Assembly (NCBI GenBank): GCA_947631155.1
Contig: CANRKG010000004.1
Location: 1 to 64,000, forward strand
Length of the DNA stretch: 64,000 nucleotides
Direction of reading: 5' to 3'
Source: an uncultured Bacilli bacterium
Lineage (GTDB): Bacteria > Bacillota_I > Bacilli_A > RF39 > UBA660
Below, in pieces: positions 1 through 38,927 of this stretch. A program made the translations under genes and the position numbers. Within the stretch, counting starts at the first letter, position 1; the number at the start of each line of letters is the position of its first letter. The notes beneath the pieces are model-generated. The model saw only the letters and a list, made by a program, of their open reading frames with translations. It was not told the origin of the DNA and ran no database searches.

Positions 1-2
1 AT

Positions 3-2213
3 ACAAATTTGGGAATTGTAGCTCCAGGATTTCAATATGCATATGCAGGAGTTCCAGCTGAATATTCAACAAATATTGATTTAAATCAAAATAAAACCGA
101 TGTAAATACAGTTTATCATATTGATATGGAAAATAATGAAATTGTACCATTGTCGGGGAAAGATATTAACAATACATTTCACAAAGTTACAAAGGAAGAA
201 AAAGAAACATTATGGAATATTTCAGAAAAAATTATATCTAATGGAGATTGTAAAAATGCATACCAAGGACAATACTTAATTTTTTCTTGCGATAATTTAG
301 ATGAATATTTTGCAAAATATAATTTAGAAAATCCTTCAGCTAGAATATCATTAGCACAATATTATAATAGATTTGATATAGTAAAGAGAGAATTTTCTAA
401 GATTCAATTATCTGATTATCAAAGAAATAAACTTGAAGAAATAAAAACAAATAATGGTGAATGGTATGAAACTTTAAATATTGAAATACTAGATCCAAAG
501 TATTCATTTTTAGACAAGTATTTAGATTTTTTAGTGACTGATGTCAATGCTCAACAATTATTATTGAGTTTAAATGAAGAAGAACTATCACTATTTCAAA
601 AAATGTTTGAAAGATTAGATAATGAAACTAGTCAACCTATTAAATATATTGATACAATATTAACATATATTGGTAATTTTAGAGTAGGTAACGTGGGATT
701 GCTTAAGTATGTCTCTAGACATGATCAGTTTAGTAAGTTGGCTAAATTATTTCAAAATTCTACAATTACAGATAAGGATTTAGATTTATTAATCTATATT
801 TTTTCTCAAGGCAAACCAATTAATATTGATAGTATTGAACAATTAAGAAATTTAGATAATGTAATGTTAAATAATTTAAATAATTCAATAGATGAAATAA
901 AAAATAAAGATAGTTTTACTGAAGAAGATTTGGAAAATGTAAAATCAATATTATTGCAAAGAAGCTATGGTTATGGGTTTGATTTGAATGAATGTCGAGA
1001 ATATATACAACAGTATAATTTAGATGGAATAGATGTTAATAATTATAATGAAAATTATCGTTCTATGTATAATAGTATATTAAATATAGTAAATGAAACA
1101 GATATAAATAAATTATTTAAAATATATGAATTAATAAATAACGATTCATCCTTTGAAATAGATTACTTGACATCAATATTATTTGAAACAGGTATGAATG
1201 ATATATATTTAAAATATCTAAATGAAAAAACGTTTAAATGTACAGGCAATAATTACAGAATAAAAGATGGAGTAAAAATATATGATGCTGGAACGGACTT
1301 TAATATTATTTTAACATCTGTAGGATCTTATGGAAACTTAGAATCAGAATCTATATCTAATTGGTTTGAACTTTGGAATAACAATCTTATTCGTTCGCAT
1401 TGCAGTTGTTGTAGTTTAATTGCAAACAATAATTTATCAACTGCAAATATATATAATTATTGCATGGGATTTGCTAATTTTTATGAAGGTATGTTTTTAA
1501 ATTCTTCTTTAATGGATATAAATTCTACTCCTTCTAGTAAAAATTTGAATCCATTGAAGGAACTACTTGCTACAATTAAAAATTGGGCTTCGTTTATTGA
1601 TAATACTAGAACTACATATAATGAAGTATTATTTGAAAGAAGAGATTTAGCACCAAATAAAAAGTATTATAAAAAAAATCCGGATTATATAGTGTTATTT
1701 AAAGAATTTGAAGATACAGTAAGTCAAGAAGATTTAGATGAAAAAACGCAGAAATTATTAAAACATGAAAAACAAATTAGCGAAAATTCAATTAAAGCAG
1801 CTAAGGATTTTAATGTGCCTATTGTTGAAATTAATAGAGAAACATGTGCTAAATCAGAATCTAAAAAAATTGATAATATGGTTGATGAATTTTACAAAAC
1901 ACATAATATAGATTTATTAACTAGAATTGTAGTAGATTATGAAAATAATAGAATGGGACTTAGAAATCCACATGAGTATTTAAGAAATAAGTATTTTCCA
2001 AAGCAAAAAATTAATAAAATCCTTAGCGATTTAATTATTCATATAAATAATATTGATGATATTAACTTAAAAAATAATATTAAAAATCATTTAGAAAGTG
2101 TTATTAAAGAAGAACAGGAAAAATTTAGTCATAATGAAGGAAAAAGAACTCATAATCAGGAAGCTGGTATTGATTTTGATAAAATATTAGAATTATTAAA
2201 TAATTATAATTAA
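3..2213 (+). CDS. Hypothetical large protein, 5' end probably outside the window (frame open to the window edge)
   Basis: 734-aa ORF; frame is open upstream of the listed TTG (aca aat ttg gga), so it probably starts before base 1; no family recognised with confidence. Confidence 0.7.
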   Translation, partial: TNLGIVAPGFQYAYAGVPAEYSTNIDLNQNKTDVNTVYHIDMENNEIVPLSGKDINNTFHKVTKEEKETLWNISEKIISNGDCKNAYQGQYLIFSCDNLDEYFAKYNLENPSARISLAQYYNRFDIVKREFSKIQLSDYQRNKLEEIKTNNGEWYETLNIEILDPKYSFLDKYLDFLVTDVNAQQLLLSLNEEELSLFQKMFERLDNETSQPIKYIDTILTYIGNFRVGNVGLLKYVSRHDQFSKLAKLFQNSTITDKDLDLLIYIFSQGKPINIDSIEQLRNLDNVMLNNLNNSIDEIKNKDSFTEEDLENVKSILLQRSYGYGFDLNECREYIQQYNLDGIDVNNYNENYRSMYNSILNIVNETDINKLFKIYELINNDSSFEIDYLTSILFETGMNDIYLKYLNEKTFKCTGNNYRIKDGVKIYDAGTDFNIILTSVGSYGNLESESISNWFELWNNNLIRSHCSCCSLIANNNLSTANIYNYCMGFANFYEGMFLNSSLMDINSTPSSKNLNPLKELLATIKNWASFIDNTRTTYNEVLFERRDLAPNKKYYKKNPDYIVLFKEFEDTVSQEDLDEKTQKLLKHEKQISENSIKAAKDFNVPIVEINRETCAKSESKKIDNMVDEFYKTHNIDLLTRIVVDYENNRMGLRNPHEYLRNKYFPKQKINKILSDLIIHINNIDDINLKNNIKNHLESVIKEEQEKFSHNEGKRTHNQEAGIDFDKILELLNNYN

Positions 2214-2883: not shown

Positions 2884-3042
2884 AATTATCAAAATGATGG
2901 TTCAATCACAATTCCAAAGGCCTTGCAACCATATATGTGTGGAAATGACTAACTATAATAAGTCAAGTCATTTTCTTCAAAAATCTAAAAAAGATTTTTG
3001 CTCCACGCCAAAAAAAATTTAAAAAGAGTAATTTTTAAAATT

Positions 3043-4206
3043 TTATTTAAAAGTGATATTTTCAGATTCTAATTTATAAATAATTCTGACAGGTTTTTTA
3101 GCAACATGTGTTAAAGAAACTTTATGAGTTTTGCCTTCAGAATGCTTTTTATAATAGAATTCTGTGAATATAGGTTCATGCATAAAAACATAGTCTGCAG
3201 CATTCATAAGAAAATATCTTAAATGACCAGATCCATGTTTAACCATGTGACCAGTGTGATATTCAGTTCCAGATTGGGATATACTAGGCTCAATACCAGC
3301 AAAAGCAACACATGCATCGGCTGATTTAAATCTAGATAAATCACCAAATTCGGAAATGATACCAACACAAGAAATAATACCAATTCCTTTAATGGATAAA
3401 GTTGGTGGATTAAGTTCTTTGATAATAGACTCAATTTTATCTTCAAGTTTGTTAATTTCAACTTCAATTTGAGAATGAAGAATAAGTAAAGATTCCAATT
3501 CAGTTTCAAATATATCATTTGAAATACCAATAGAATTTTTAGCAAGTTCTTCAAGCTTAATAAAATTAGCAGAAGTGAATTTACCACGAGATACTTTTCT
3601 TATTGAATCAAAACTTTCATATTTTTGATTTTATCAGGAGTTATATATTTATTTAACATATATAAAGACGTTTTAGAAAAATCATTATTAAAGAATGGTT
3701 TAAATTAAGGAAAAATAATATTTAACACATTAGTAATTTGAACTTCATAATAAGAACGTTGTTTAACTAACTTTTCTCTCATCCTAGATAGATATTTTAA
3801 TGAATATTAATGATAAAATTGTTTTGGGTGGGGTTTGTAATCCACAGATACAAGATACTTAGTGATTAGCATGGCATCTTTTTTATCTGTTTTAGTTCTT
3901 CTAAGAGTTTTAGTTTAAATAAATCTTTTAACAAGAGCAGGATTAAATTCCATAAAAGAATAATTGTTCTTTTTCAAGGAAAAGCTTAAGGTTCATCCCA
4001 TAATGACCAGTAGCTTCAAATCCTATCCTTATTTCTTGACTATTATCTAAAGAATTTAATAAATTAAGTAATTGAATAAATCCTTCATTGGTGTTTGTGA
4101 AAGATAAATTTTCTTCAATTACTTCACCTGTTTCAGAACAAATGAAACAATCATGTTTGTATGTTGAAATATCAATACCAACAAAATACATAAAAAACAC
4201 CTCCAA
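3043..4206 (-). pseudogene. IS110-family transposase, decayed (frameshifts and stops)
   Basis: N-terminal MYFVGIDISTYKHDCFI...GFEATGHYG and C-terminal IKGIGIISCVGIISEFGD..FKSADACVAFAGIEPSISQSG..HMVKHGSGHLRYFLMNAA are IS110-like. Between them the reverse strand reads MEFNPALVKRFI*TKTLRRTKTDKKDAMLITKYL...FYH*YSLKYLSRMREKLVKQRS..FP*FKPFFNN, with in-frame TAA codons and at least two frame changes. Confidence 0.88.
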
Positions 4207-5853: not shown

Positions 5854-5872
5854 TTTTATAGATATATTTTTA

Positions 5873-5901
5873 AAAAGAAGAAATTTATATTGTTTCTTCT
5901 T
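5873..5901. terminator. Bidirectional rho-independent terminator between convergent genes
   Basis: AAAGAAGAAA tttatattg TTTCTTCTTT flanked by A and T tracts between converging CDSs. Confidence 0.6.
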
Positions 5902-7259
5902 TACTTTTTATATTTATTTTTAATCGCATTTTTATAATAGTTGCCTTTTTCTTCAAAATTTTTAAATTTATTATAACTAGCCGCTGCTGGTGATAGTAAA
6001 CAAATATGTTTCTTTTTAGTTTGTTTACTAGCTATATCAATAGCGTCATCAATACTTTCAACTAAATAGATATTTTTATTAGTTCCTTTTTCTTTTAAAA
6101 TGTTACATATTATATGACCTGTATCTGGTAGTCCTATTAAATTAGAGATATTTGACTTTCTCAAAAAATCAATAAATTCTTGATAATCAATATTTCTATT
6201 TAGACCTCCAAATATTAATGTATCAACATTTTGGAGAGCTTTGATACCATTAATAGTAGCTTCTGGTATAGTAGCAATAGAGTCATTATAGTAAGTTATA
6301 TCATTATATGTTCCCACTTTTTCTAATCGATGCTCTAAGGGTGCGAATCGATTGATAGAATTTATGGCTTTTTTAATATCTAAATTTAATATTTTGCATA
6401 TTAATAAAGCTACCATAATATTTTTTAAATTATGAATTCCAATTAAATTTCTCTTTTGATTACCATCATATATTATTTCATCTTTATAATATATTTGATT
6501 ATCCATAATATAAATATTTCCTATTTCATTTACTTTAAAATTATATAGGTGGCTTTTAAAATTACTTAAATTTTGTTCTAAATATTTGTTCTGTCCATCA
6601 TAGATAGCTATATCATTTTTATCTTGGTATCTAATAATGTTCATTTTATCGTGATAATATTTTTGTAAAGTTCCTGTATGATCAATGTGATCCTGATACA
6701 AATTTAAAATTACACCAATGTGAGGACTAGTTTTTATATATTCTAATTGATGAGATGACATTTCAATGACCAAAAGAGATTGATTATTAAATTGTTCTAT
6801 ATAATCAAAAATAGGTCTTCCTATATTACCCAGCAAGAAAACATTTTCATTTTGTTCTTTAATTATAGTATATAGTAAAGAAGAAGTAGTACTTTTACCT
6901 TTAGTACCAGTTATACCAATAATATTTTTTTTATTTATTTCAAGTATTAATTCTAATTGAGAAGTTAGTTTATTTTTTAATTGATTAGTATTTATATTTA
7001 GTAAAGCAATTCCGGGCGTTTTAATAATTAAATCATATTGTTCTAAATTATCCAAATAATGCTCACCAATAACAATATTAACATTTTGATCAATTTTTAA
7101 ATAATCATTATTACTAAGAATATCGTGTTGATCTAAAATAGTTAATTTTTTCGTTTTGAGATACTTTCTTATAAAATGATAGGTTGATTTTCCTTCCTGG
7201 CCAAAACCCAGAATAGAGATATTTTTATCTTTTAGTTTTTCAATTATTTTTTCATACAT
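5901..7259 (-). CDS. murD2: MurD-family ligase, probably UDP-N-acetylmuramoyl-L-alanine--L-glutamate ligase (MurD2-like)
   Basis: Mur ligase motifs GITGTKGKSTTSSLLY, NLYQDHIDHTG, APLEHRLEKVGTYNDITYYNDSIATIPEAT; TKGKS replaces the usual TNGKT; overlaps the MurL-like gene by 8 bp. Confidence 0.75.
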   Translation of the reverse strand: MYEKIIEKLKDKNISILGFGQEGKSTYHFIRKYLKTKKLTILDQHDILSNNDYLKIDQNVNIVIGEHYLDNLEQYDLIIKTPGIALLNINTNQLKNKLTSQLELILEINKKNIIGITGTKGKSTTSSLLYTIIKEQNENVFLLGNIGRPIFDYIEQFNNQSLLVIEMSSHQLEYIKTSPHIGVILNLYQDHIDHTGTLQKYYHDKMNIIRYQDKNDIAIYDGQNKYLEQNLSNFKSHLYNFKVNEIGNIYIMDNQIYYKDEIIYDGNQKRNLIGIHNLKNIMVALLICKILNLDIKKAINSINRFAPLEHRLEKVGTYNDITYYNDSIATIPEATINGIKALQNVDTLIFGGLNRNIDYQEFIDFLRKSNISNLIGLPDTGHIICNILKEKGTNKNIYLVESIDDAIDIASKQTKKKHICLLSPAAASYNKFKNFEEKGNYYKNAIKNKYKK

Positions 7260-8598
7260 TATTAAGCGCCTCTTTAATTATTTTTTCAAATTTTGGTTCT
7301 AAATTGTTAGTTTTATTATACTTGATTTTAAAATTTTCTTTTAAATATAAAGGGTAGTTATCTTTATAATATTTAAGCAAATAAGGTAATTTATCTAATT
7401 TTTGAATTAAAAGACTAACTGCAAATCTTACTTCATTATAAGTTCCTACACATTCAAAAGGTTTAGTGTTAGAGTACCCTAATAGCTCGATAAAAGTGGG
7501 CAGTAGATTTTTGTCTTCATATAAATCTTTACCAAATATATTAATTAATTCATTTTTGTATAAAAATGGACTTAATATAATATAAACAAATAAACATTTA
7601 GGGCATTTACAACACCAATTCCATTTCTCATTTTTACTACCTAAGTTGCAACTTTTAAAGATACTATGGTATTTTTTCATTTTAGAAAAAAGCATTCCTA
7701 TTTGAAATTCAGTTAAAGGTCTTAACAGACTAAAATATTTTATATCAATTTTAAAATACTTTTTAGTATAATTGTTAAAGTCATTTTCAAATTCATAAGT
7801 TTTAGAGTATTGATGATTAATATTAGTATTTAATACAGTACTTTCATTAGCGCTATCTTCATTAGATAGGACTATATATTGTTTATTAGTTAAATATGCA
7901 CATAAATAAGATGTAAAGGCTACTATTGCACTAAATGGGGTATGACCATTTAAAAAGCCTTGTTTATTTAATTCTAATAATTTTTTATCTAATAGTCGGT
8001 TAATGGTTACAGTCTTATTTTGATATTGAGCTACCTTGGCACATTCTATATTAGCTCCCTTTGGATTTATTATGAAACAAGTATTATCTTGTCCTTTTAA
8101 TAATTCTAATGTCACACATGAATCTTTACCTCCACCAACAGGAATTAAGTTTCCTTGTCCTTGGTAGTTTGTTATAAAGTTGATTTTGTTACCTTCTACT
8201 GTAATATTAAATAAATCTTCTTCTTTAATATTTATACCATTGCGGTATAAGAATTCTAACAGACCATTATAATATAATTTCTTAAACCACTTTATTTGTT
8301 CATCATCTAGATAACCAGCCTTAATAATTATGTTAGGGGAACAAGTACATTTTATATAACTTATTAGTTCTACTAAACCAATATTAAAAACCAAGTAGTT
8401 AAAGAAATTTTTATCAATATTGGGATTGCTTAAATTATCCTTGTTTATTATTAATTTAGGAGTAAATGTAACTAATTTTGGTATATCAAAAAAGAATACA
8501 ATTTCATAAGTATTTTCTTTTTCTATTATTTCATATTTTTCATAGATAAAAGTCTTGTATTTATTTCTAAAATCAATAAATTTATTGTAATTATTCAT
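7252..8598 (-). CDS. murL: MurL-like protein: UDP-MurNAc-L-Ala-L-Glu epimerase family (PP-loop/HUP-like)
   Basis: 448 aa; PVGGGKDSCVTLELL PP-loop-like motif, CCKCPKCLFVYIILSPF Cys cluster, KPFECVGTYNEVRFA; overlaps the MurD2-like gene in the same orientation. Confidence 0.7.
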   Translation of the reverse strand: MNNYNKFIDFRNKYKTFIYEKYEIIEKENTYEIVFFFDIPKLVTFTPKLIINKDNLSNPNIDKNFFNYLVFNIGLVELISYIKCTCSPNIIIKAGYLDDEQIKWFKKLYYNGLLEFLYRNGINIKEEDLFNITVEGNKINFITNYQGQGNLIPVGGGKDSCVTLELLKGQDNTCFIINPKGANIECAKVAQYQNKTVTINRLLDKKLLELNKQGFLNGHTPFSAIVAFTSYLCAYLTNKQYIVLSNEDSANESTVLNTNINHQYSKTYEFENDFNNYTKKYFKIDIKYFSLLRPLTEFQIGMLFSKMKKYHSIFKSCNLGSKNEKWNWCCKCPKCLFVYIILSPFLYKNELINIFGKDLYEDKNLLPTFIELLGYSNTKPFECVGTYNEVRFAVSLLIQKLDKLPYLLKYYKDNYPLYLKENFKIKYNKTNNLEPKFEKIIKEALNNV

Positions 8599-8832
8599 TT
8601 TGTATCCTCCTGGGTATAATTATACATTAATTTAATTAAAATATAAATAGATACTGAAAATATATAAACATTTGAAGTTTACATATAAATGTATGTATAA
8701 CAAAGAAAAAAATACATTTAATTTTTAATGAAGTAAAAAATATACTTTAGTATAAATAACAGAAAGGATTATTAAAGTGAATAAAATATAGTAAAAAAGA
8801 CCATTATATAGACAAAGCAAATAGCTTGAAAA

Positions 8833-13217: not shown

Positions 13218-14858
13218 ATGAATTTTGAAAGTACACTTTCAAAGTCATTATTAAATATATATAAGCCAGAAGAAATTGCAAAATATATTAGATTATCTTT
13301 AGCAGATGAATATAATCAAGCTGATGAAAGTGAAAGTGTTGCGAATCAAAGACGATTATTAAATGAATTTATAAACCGAAATGGTAATGTTGGAGAAGAG
13401 TGTAAAGAATTTATTGATGATGGTTGTTCTGGAACAAACTTTCAAAGACCAGGGTGGCAAGATTTAATGAGTGAAGCTGATAGTGGAAAAATAAAAGTAA
13501 TTATAACTAAGAATTTATCAAGATTAGGAAGAAGTAATTTTGAATGTGGTTATTTTTTAGATTATTATTTTCCTACTAATAATATTAGATATATTTCTGT
13601 TCAAGAACAAGTAGATACAGTTAATAATGAAAATTCAAATAATGAATATGCTGCTTTAAATAATTTTATAAACGAAAAGTATTCAAGAGATTTATCAAAA
13701 AATATAAAAAAAGTGTATAAAATTAAGCAATATGCTGGAGAATATATGGGTGGGCAGCCAATATATGGTTATAAAAAGGATCCAAATGATAAACATAAAC
13801 TAATTATTGATGAAGATGCTTCCAAAGTAGTTCAAAGAATATATAAAATGTATTTAGAAACTCGTTCCCAAAACCAAATTAGGACAACTTTGAGTAAAGA
13901 AAAAATCCCTATTCCAGAAGTTTATAAAAAATCTCGTAGAGGCTTAAAAGCTAAACATCCTTATGAGTGGAATTATCGTACTATTAGGGATATATTACGA
14001 AATGAAATGTATATAGGTAATATGGTGCAAAATATTTTTTCAAAAAAAAGTTTTAGAGATAAAAAAATGACTAAAAATAAACCAGAAGACTGGATTATTG
14101 TTGAAAACACACATGAACCAATTATTGATAAAGAAACATTTTATCAAGTGCAAGAATTATTGGATGCAAATTATAGACAACCAGTTAAACCGTATCCTCA
14201 TGATTTTGCAGGACTAATATATTGTCATGAATGTGGTCATAAAATTGGAATCGGTAATGTAAAAAGAAATAGGAGTACAAGTAAACAATATTTTTATACT
14301 TATTGTAATTATTATAGAAAAAATAGTGCGTACAATAAATGTAGTTCACACTCACTAAATTATAATAATTTAGAAGCACAATTGTTGGATATAATTAATA
14401 GTATGTGTAAGAAATTTTCGAATAAATTAGATTATGAAACAATTGTAAATGAAAAAAAACAAGGATTAAATACTTATGGAGATACATTAATTAAAAAAAT
14501 AAATAAATTAGAAATTGATATTAAAGAGATGAATCTCAAAATAGAAAAAATTTATATGGACCGGTTAGATGATGTTATATCTGCAAGTACTTATAAAAAA
14601 ATGTCTGAAAAATTAGAATTAAAAAAACAAGAATTAATAAATGAAAAACAAGAATTACAAAAAAGTTATGATGAGTATATGAAAGATAATTCTATTGATA
14701 AATTAATTGAAACTACCAAGATAGTAAAAGAATATCTCAAAGTAAGAAAAATAGAAAAACGAGATTTAATAATAAAAATAGTTGATAGAATTGAAATTCA
14801 TCAAGATAAAACAATAGATGTTTATTTTAAATTAAAACCCCTAGGGATTACAGCATAG
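13218..14858 (+). CDS. Large serine recombinase/integrase
   Basis: 546 aa; KYIRLSLADEYNQADESESVANQRRLL, IDDGCSGTNFQRPGWQDLM, ITKNLSRLGRSNFECGYF; recombinase domain and Cys zinc ribbon (GLIYCHECGHKIGIG...YCNYYRKN), C-terminal coiled coil. Confidence 0.96.
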   Translation: MNFESTLSKSLLNIYKPEEIAKYIRLSLADEYNQADESESVANQRRLLNEFINRNGNVGEECKEFIDDGCSGTNFQRPGWQDLMSEADSGKIKVIITKNLSRLGRSNFECGYFLDYYFPTNNIRYISVQEQVDTVNNENSNNEYAALNNFINEKYSRDLSKNIKKVYKIKQYAGEYMGGQPIYGYKKDPNDKHKLIIDEDASKVVQRIYKMYLETRSQNQIRTTLSKEKIPIPEVYKKSRRGLKAKHPYEWNYRTIRDILRNEMYIGNMVQNIFSKKSFRDKKMTKNKPEDWIIVENTHEPIIDKETFYQVQELLDANYRQPVKPYPHDFAGLIYCHECGHKIGIGNVKRNRSTSKQYFYTYCNYYRKNSAYNKCSSHSLNYNNLEAQLLDIINSMCKKFSNKLDYETIVNEKKQGLNTYGDTLIKKINKLEIDIKEMNLKIEKIYMDRLDDVISASTYKKMSEKLELKKQELINEKQELQKSYDEYMKDNSIDKLIETTKIVKEYLKVRKIEKRDLIIKIVDRIEIHQDKTIDVYFKLKPLGITA

Positions 14859-36929: not shown

Positions 36930-38927
36930 TTATTCTGTAGGCATAGGATCTGTAGGAGGTTCTTCTTTTTTTGTACAAACCCCTTCTTGTTTAATATAGC
37001 CCTGTTTACAAACACAGGATACACCATCTGCACCTAATTCTTCATTTTCGCCATCACAAGTGACTTCTTTAGCTTGTGAGTCATTATTATCTTCATCTTC
37101 ATTATCAATTATATTATTTGATGTATCTTCATCAGCGTCTTTGGTACATACGCCAGCTTTTTTGGAATATCCCCACTTACAAACACAGGTTACACCATCC
37201 GCACCTAATTCTTCATTTGTACCACATTTTTCTTCTTCATAATCTTTTGCTTTTTTATATTTAGAAGAATCATATGTAGATTTATAAGGACCTTCACCTA
37301 TAACCTTTTTCTCATATGGATTATTAATAGAAAAAGTAAATTTCTTAATAGTTTTATGGTTTAATAATCCCAAATTCATTTTCATTTCTTTAGTTATATC
37401 ATCTCGGCTATGAGTATTTGGAACATAATTATATAAATCCATACGCATACTACTGTCATATATCATAGCACTTTGACCATATAAATATAATCTTTGAATA
37501 TTAACAATATTAGAACTATCACTACTTAATCCTAATTTCATAATATCTTTAACAACACTATAGAATGATAAAATTTGTTTTGTAGTTAAGTTAGTATCAA
37601 TACTATTAGAGACTGTATTAAATAAATTAGTGAATTGATTAATACTTTTAATAGACTTAACTTTTTGAAGCATGGCTTGAATAACTAATTGTTGATTTTG
37701 ACCACGTCCAAAGTCTCCATTTATTAATTGTTTTCTATTTCGAGATAATACTAATGCTTCTTCACCGTTTAAGTGTTGAGGTCCTTTATTAATACATATT
37801 TGAACTTCACGACTAGAGTTATCTGTACATAGATCTTGAGGAACATCAACATCTATACCACCTAAGGCATCAACTAATTTTACTAATCCTTTAAAATTAA
37901 TTTTAGCATAATAATCGATATTGACATCAAAATAGTTTTCAATAGTATTTATCATACAATCATTTCCATAAGCAGCAGCATGAGTAATTTTATTTTCTCT
38001 TTTACCTGGCCAACAAGCAATAGGTACATATGTATCTCTTGGTATTGATAACATAGTTACATTTAATGTCTTTGGATTAAAGGTAATTAATATTAATGAG
38101 TCTCCATTCGCAATCGCATTTTTAGTCAACACTTCATCAGTAGAATCTATTCCCATAAGTAGGATAGTAAATGGTTCATTAACTGACTTTCCAATTGAAG
38201 CATTTTCTGTTTTTGAAGTTTCTGATTTTAACATTTCTTTTTCTTGACTAATAATTATTTTTGTTTCATTTTGTATTTCTTCATAGCCAGCCATACTACT
38301 ATAAATAGTAGGATAGTCAGTCGCTAGAAAAATTGCATCAACTTCTTTGGAATATAAATCAGTAATCATTTCAATATAATTATCATAATTTATAACATCA
38401 TTTTCATCTTGTAATTTTTTTTCTTTAATTATCTTTTGTGGAATTATATATCCTTCTGGCGAAGTTTTATCTTTTAAAATCCCAATTTTATAATTTTTAA
38501 TATCAGATATTTTATTAGCGGCATTATCTTTTAATACTACTAAACTACTGGAGTAGGTAACATATTTTTTATTAATACTATTAACTGTTCCATAAAAATA
38601 ATAAATTATATAACCAACTGCAGAACAAATAATAGAATATAAAATTAAAAAGATAATAAAGCCAATCCGTTTACTTGCCTTTTTCCTTTTTTTCTTATTA
38701 GGAGGTTTTAATCTCCATACTAGACGCATTTTTATTAACAGAATTAAATCTATTAATAGTAAAGTACCGATTATAATGTATCTAATTTTATCTTCTATAC
38801 CACTTAATTGAAATATATTATAAATTAAAAATCCACTTGTAATTAAAGCTATAATAAAAAATATTAAGGCTACAATACTAGATTTTTTTCTCTTTGGTTT
38901 ATCTAAATTTTCTATTTTTTCTGCCAT
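36930..38927 (-). CDS. LytR-CpsA-Psr (LCP) family protein with two C-terminal EGF-like Cys repeats
   Basis: LLMGIDSTDEV..GDSLILITFNPKTLNVTMLSIPRDTYV..KITHAAAYG..LVDALGGIDVDVP..LNGEEALVLSRNR; C-terminal CGTNEELGADGVTCVCKWGYSKKAGVC and CDGENEELGADGVSCVCKQGYIKQEGVC. Confidence 0.93.
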   Translation of the reverse strand: MAEKIENLDKPKRKKSSIVALIFFIIALITSGFLIYNIFQLSGIEDKIRYIIIGTLLLIDLILLIKMRLVWRLKPPNKKKRKKASKRIGFIIFLILYSIICSAVGYIIYYFYGTVNSINKKYVTYSSSLVVLKDNAANKISDIKNYKIGILKDKTSPEGYIIPQKIIKEKKLQDENDVINYDNYIEMITDLYSKEVDAIFLATDYPTIYSSMAGYEEIQNETKIIISQEKEMLKSETSKTENASIGKSVNEPFTILLMGIDSTDEVLTKNAIANGDSLILITFNPKTLNVTMLSIPRDTYVPIACWPGKRENKITHAAAYGNDCMINTIENYFDVNIDYYAKINFKGLVKLVDALGGIDVDVPQDLCTDNSSREVQICINKGPQHLNGEEALVLSRNRKQLINGDFGRGQNQQLVIQAMLQKVKSIKSINQFTNLFNTVSNSIDTNLTTKQILSFYSVVKDIMKLGLSSDSSNIVNIQRLYLYGQSAMIYDSSMRMDLYNYVPNTHSRDDITKEMKMNLGLLNHKTIKKFTFSINNPYEKKVIGEGPYKSTYDSSKYKKAKDYEEEKCGTNEELGADGVTCVCKWGYSKKAGVCTKDADEDTSNNIIDNEDEDNNDSQAKEVTCDGENEELGADGVSCVCKQGYIKQEGVCTKKEEPPTDPMPTE

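Follow-up and report, generated by a model that had tools for sequence, protein, structure and literature searches.

Does a gut bacterium of the Bacillota make the D-glutamate (D-Glu) of its peptidoglycan by a route described from Xanthomonas? This question is raised by two overlapping genes in the window analyzed here, 64,000 nt of contig CANRKG010000004.1 (C4 in the genome's own contig set) from an uncultured gut Bacilli bacterium. On the minus strand, an open reading frame (ORF) for a 448-amino acid MurL-like protein (8598→7252) is followed by one for a 452-amino acid MurD-family ligase of the MurD2 type (7259→5901). The end of murL and the start of murD2 share 8 bp (7252..7259), an overlap that may couple their translation; both ORFs and the overlap were present where the preliminary description of this DNA had placed them. 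We consider it very likely that murL–murD2 is an operon for an alternative D-Glu step of peptidoglycan synthesis that replaces glutamate racemase. By this route, MurD2 would attach L-glutamate (L-Glu) first and MurL would then flip the attached L-Glu to D-Glu, the inversion proceeding via an adenylate with adenosine triphosphate (ATP) converted to adenosine monophosphate (AMP). Xanthomonas and two actinobacteria are known to carry out both reactions, L-Glu ligation and epimerization. The assignment is based on homology, the gene pair, a residue signature, protein fold and near-exclusion with the racemase gene murI; the window proteins would perform both reactions in this organism and serve as its main D-Glu source. 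Chance as the source of the pair is excluded by profile matches to the MurL model NF041275 (E 1.6e-77) and the MurD model TIGR01087 (E 8.5e-94), and by the presence of the same pair at 80/80 related loci.

The match to NF041275 (261 bits) in a profile search also supplies the hidden Markov model support that the preliminary description had named as a check on its MurL assignment. The motifs on which that assignment rested, GGGKDS (residues 155–160), a Cys cluster and KPFECVG (residues 379–385), are all in the MurL-like ORF, are shared with Xanthomonas MurL and vary little or not at all among 61 relatives, GGGKDS being retained in 61/61. Window MurL is 28.5% identical to the annotated X. sacchari MurL over 432 columns, its full length. 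Among the 71 positions at least 98% conserved in the 61 relatives, which we term invariant, 54 are retained in this comparison, including GGGKDS, NHQ.SK, C317/C329/C332/C335 and KPFEC.G. Xanthomonas oryzae (XOO_1319/XOO_1320) and X. sacchari have the gene order and overlapping ORFs of the window, although the X. sacchari overlap is approximately 20 bp rather than 8 bp.

The AlphaFold model of window MurL (predicted local distance difference test score, 95) gave QueC as its sole fold match in the PDB below E 0.001 (PDB 2pg3; E 3.6e-4, probability 1.00, template modeling score 0.63 on QueC), with other PP-loop enzymes ranking after it. A profile match to the TtuA PP-loop was obtained with E 7e-4, while searching PDB sequences with MurL alone returned no match. 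Loop and modeled fold together place window MurL in the PP-loop ATP pyrophosphatase superfamily. MurL has an SGGKDS-type PP-loop and the fold in common with QueC, and its C-xn-C-x2-C-x2-C cluster presumably resembles the QueC zinc site. However, QueC is only 14% identical to MurL in the fold alignment, and MurL has roughly double the length of QueC, with additional N-terminal and C-terminal regions and different chemistry. PP-loop enzymes cleave ATP to AMP and pyrophosphate, forming adenylates, so a QueC-like PP-loop fold would account for the ATP-to-AMP chemistry of MurL. The enzyme needs ATP, which is turned to AMP, by a mechanism reported as unclear (PMC8788868, PMC5808125). MurL would then act through an adenylate, with putative roles for the cysteines and for a base that takes the alpha proton, and the fold assignment offers MurL a testable predicted active site.

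The partner ligase scores 315 bits against TIGR01087 (cut-off 212) and, like canonical MurD, is a three-domain Mur ligase; it differs from canonical MurD by P-loop Asn to Lys, Lys319 to Ile and Asn322 to Ile, and by its separate branch in the tree. Its P-loop reads GTKGKST, as had been noted from the sequence alone. We compared 85 MurD2 sequences of Bacillota and Bacteroidota, all adjoining MurL, with 29 canonical MurDs. The P-loop residue is Lys in 85/85 MurD2 versus Asn or Asp in the canonical enzymes, and the position of Lys319 (Escherichia coli MurD numbering) is Ile or Leu in 85/85 versus Lys, Glu or Val. Window MurD2 has Ile at this position, the site of the K319T substitution by which E. 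coli MurD comes to accept L-Glu (PMC8788868). X. sacchari MurD2, 24.7% identical to the window ligase, shares with it GTKGKST and the residues matching Lys319 (Ile) and Lys348 (Arg), while Xanthomonas MurD2 and the window enzyme differ at three other sites of this comparison (Glu197 to Asp, Pro to Ala and Phe to Tyr). A single branch separates 61 MurD2 sequences, X. sacchari included, from 23 canonical MurDs with a FastTree support of 97, which is indicative, X. sacchari MurD2 being a long branch. The score above the MurD cut-off, and an Asp190 as in E. coli MurD, would also suit an ordinary D-Glu-adding MurD that happens to adjoin an unrelated PP-loop enzyme. We judge this most improbable, as the ligase branches with X. 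sacchari MurD2 apart from all canonical MurDs, carries the P-loop Lys and Ile at 319, and has a neighbor homologous to MurL. L-Glu specificity is predicted for this MurD2-type ligase.

The host genome (64 contigs, 96% complete, 6.9% contamination estimate) was searched for other D-Glu genes. Profile searches of this 96% complete assembly found no match to glutamate racemase murI (TIGR00067), the Asp/Glu racemase family PF01177, D-amino-acid transaminase TIGR01121 or the class IV aminotransferases PF01063, so that the proposed lack of murI and D-amino-acid transaminase was borne out. Among 386 genomes of the host family, MurL was present in 68 and murI in 133, with both in one (G413) where 23.4 were expected; 67/68 MurL genomes thus have no murI. 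The Fisher p of 8e-13 for this exclusion ignores relatedness and is indicative only. Fourteen genera of the family contain both MurL species and murI species, so the MurI + MurD route, in which free Glu is racemized before ligation, occurs alongside MurL within genera but almost never in one genome. Together with the MurL model and the X. sacchari comparison, these absences and the family-wide near-exclusion support the alternative D-Glu route that the preliminary description had put forward.

The pair is far from confined to this host. A GTDB scan confirmed at least 575 MurL relatives; the loci of the best 80 were examined, and a subset of 50 genomes was checked for murI and a second MurD. 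The best 80 loci belong to Bacilli, Clostridia, Lachnospiraceae, other Bacillota and a few Bacteroidota, and at all 80 a MurD2-type ligase is encoded downstream in the same orientation, with an overlap or a short gap in nearly all. The expectation of a pathway outside its characterized lineages therefore held for Bacillota, but not as an oddity of one genome, since the pair is widespread there. murI was above cut-off in 0/50 MurL genomes, 11 giving weak matches only (22–40 bits), and 31/50 had no second full MurD above cut-off, leaving MurD2 as the only full MurD. In three MurL genomes canonical murD is damaged, by a frameshift (G080), by loss of the C-terminal third (G074) or by reduction (G106) to a C-terminal 182 amino acids between mraY-like and ftsW-like genes. 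On balance we favor a scheme in which the D-Glu step is an exchangeable module in Bacillota, MurI + MurD and MurL + MurD2 having been swapped many times even within genera with canonical murD sometimes decaying afterward, and in which MurL works as a QueC-like PP-loop enzyme, using an adenylate to invert an amino acid.

In a plasmid collection, MurL relatives were found only in one Xanthomonas and three Pseudonocardia. One of them, on Pseudonocardia alni plasmid pPaSha1 (3264–4664), is annotated as hypothetical with no annotated ligase adjoining, perhaps another use of the fold. Such a relative could suggest that the window pair makes or epimerizes a product other than peptidoglycan, such as a secondary metabolite or another glutamyl peptide, but no biosynthetic cluster surrounds the pair, and its constant association with MurD2, the only full MurD in most genomes checked, renders this very unlikely.

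Several observations weigh against replacement of the racemase by the window pair. Window MurL, at 261 bits, does not reach the curated cut-off of 700 bits of NF041275 (MurL_Xanthmoales), a narrow equivalog and Xanthomonadales-only model whose cut-off none of the genomes searched reached. Two residues have been shown to govern the L-Glu specificity of Xanthomonas MurD2. Arg358 is retained in the window as Arg355, which does not discriminate (Arg is also present in 26/29 canonical MurDs), and the Glu197 equivalent is Asp190; 56 of the 85 MurD2 have Glu at this position and 29 have Asp, so its state is not family-defining here. By contrast with the Xanthomonas system, the host retains canonical murD, whose absence the preliminary description had named as a check: an intact copy lies at C10:43864-45183 in the context rpoC-rpsL-rpsG-fusA-tuf-femAB-murD-eno, the same order as in sibling G004. 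Its ratio of nonsynonymous to synonymous rates (dN/dS) against siblings is approximately 0.12–0.16, like that of sibling–sibling pairs, and a retained murD evolving in this way suggests some D-Glu use. A second full MurD above cut-off was also found in 19/50 MurL genomes, and the eight such copies that were read are canonical by motif. murI may be missing from the host assembly because of its 64 contigs, 96% completeness and contamination. Finally, 186/386 family genomes have neither MurL nor murI, so murI absence alone is no proof of MurL use, and a third D-Glu source, or assembly gaps, must exist. Separately, several genomes with neither gene (G009, G013, G015 and G036) carry strong canonical murD. 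In the host genus (host C10 and siblings), canonical MurD is conserved even though Glu occupies the Lys319 position (NDTEATN) and Cys the Phe422 position.

These observations can be accommodated if the pair is active but secondary, with the C10 MurD doing the main work on gut D-Glu or on the product of a racemase that is unassembled or unrecognized. The intact, sibling-like murD, the share of the family that may draw on another D-Glu source and the presence of both systems in G413 are consistent with this arrangement. It is at odds with the absence of murI from 67/68 family MurL genomes and from 50/50 across Bacillota and Bacteroidota, and with purifying selection on murL and murD2: window MurL and MurD2 differ from their G153 counterparts at proportions of nonsynonymous sites (pN) of 0.10 and 0.13, with synonymous differences (pS) saturated. 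We regard a secondary role as possible but unlikely, and replacement of the racemase step by murL–murD2 remains the preferred reading.

The pair occupies a variable spot. In siblings, serS and an ankyrin gene are adjacent, and what lies between the two varies: alr and a phosphoribosyltransferase gene in G001/G005, another ORF in G003 and nothing in G007. In the window, this spot holds a serS remnant, a broken IS110-family transposase, two small genes and the murL–murD2 pair. The remnant that marks it duplicates 65 bp from the serS 3′ end (2884..2948, plus strand) and is 91% identical to the intact host serS on contig C51 and 75–80% to sibling serS ends; the transposase between remnant and pair (3043..4206, minus strand) is split, with the Pfam domains Transposase_20 and DEDD_Tnp_IS110 falling on different ORFs. 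In G413 (C68, 212-2217), murI overlaps the serS end, the same spot as the murL pair or alr elsewhere. In G153, which is the nearest relative and belongs to another genus, the pair follows serS directly and is oriented as in the window. Window MurL is 82% identical to the copy of genus g93, second highest of 48 reciprocal best pairs (median 54%). Synonymous sites of the window pair against G153 give pS 0.86–0.89 versus approximately 0.55 within the genus, a saturation that points to an ancient common origin. An early pair passed on vertically, with losses, explains the window and G153 pairs at least as well as horizontal transfer from g93.

MurL is found in only 1/9 genomes of the host genus, which, with the 6.9% contamination estimate, could indicate an assembly artefact in which a different organism of the bin contributed either the contig with murL or the one with canonical murD. 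That is a slim prospect, as the C4 order ankyrin-ylbF-rpsP-cdsA-rseP-priA is common to sibling genomes at 73–81% DNA identity, C10 has the gene order of G004, and G020 independently carries MurL and canonical murD together. Contamination as the source of the pair was rejected on the synteny of C4 and C10 with siblings.

Published hosts of MurL/MurD2 are Gammaproteobacteria, Alphaproteobacteria and rare actinobacteria (PMC8788868), with low-similarity MurL orthologues in a fungus, cyanobacteria and an amoeba (PMC5808125). No published report of MurL/MurD2 in Bacillota was found in a search that mostly left subscription journals outside; the window pair genuinely belongs to a known pathway, here in lineages that none of the reports found had covered. 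The route has been presented in print as restricted to such hosts and proposed as a narrow-spectrum drug target; should it prove common among gut Bacillota, the claims of rarity and drug selectivity need revising. Murein annotation would likewise change for many genomes seemingly without a D-Glu source, and cultured Lachnospiraceae with the pair, such as Pseudobutyrivibrio xylanivorans, would become test organisms.

Around the pair, a Shine–Dalgarno-like AGGAGG (8606..8611, minus strand) stands ahead of the murL ATG at 8598. A possible promoter, TTTATA-17-TATAAT (10/12; 8619..8647, minus strand), is a weak candidate because shuffled sequence yields promoter-like sites at least as often as this AT-rich region. 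A possible AT-rich intrinsic terminator 3′ of murD2, GAAGAAA...TTTCTTCTTTTT (5871..5899, minus strand), was seen by direct reading and is absent from the terminator scan output. No RNA families were found near the pair. At the start of the window (1–2213), the first 80 bp of a 734-amino acid ORF are 99% identical to a different ORF on C51 and the remainder is divergent; the two may represent a variable element in which N-termini are held in common and C-termini are swapped. C51 also has a WXG-like ORF after serS. A large serine recombinase gene just before rpsP (13218–14858), with related stretches in siblings, is likely a mobile element. Farther along, a LytR-CpsA-Psr gene (36930–38927) precedes a long run of glycosyltransferase, deoxythymidine diphosphate-rhamnose-type and other polysaccharide genes (39084–63286).
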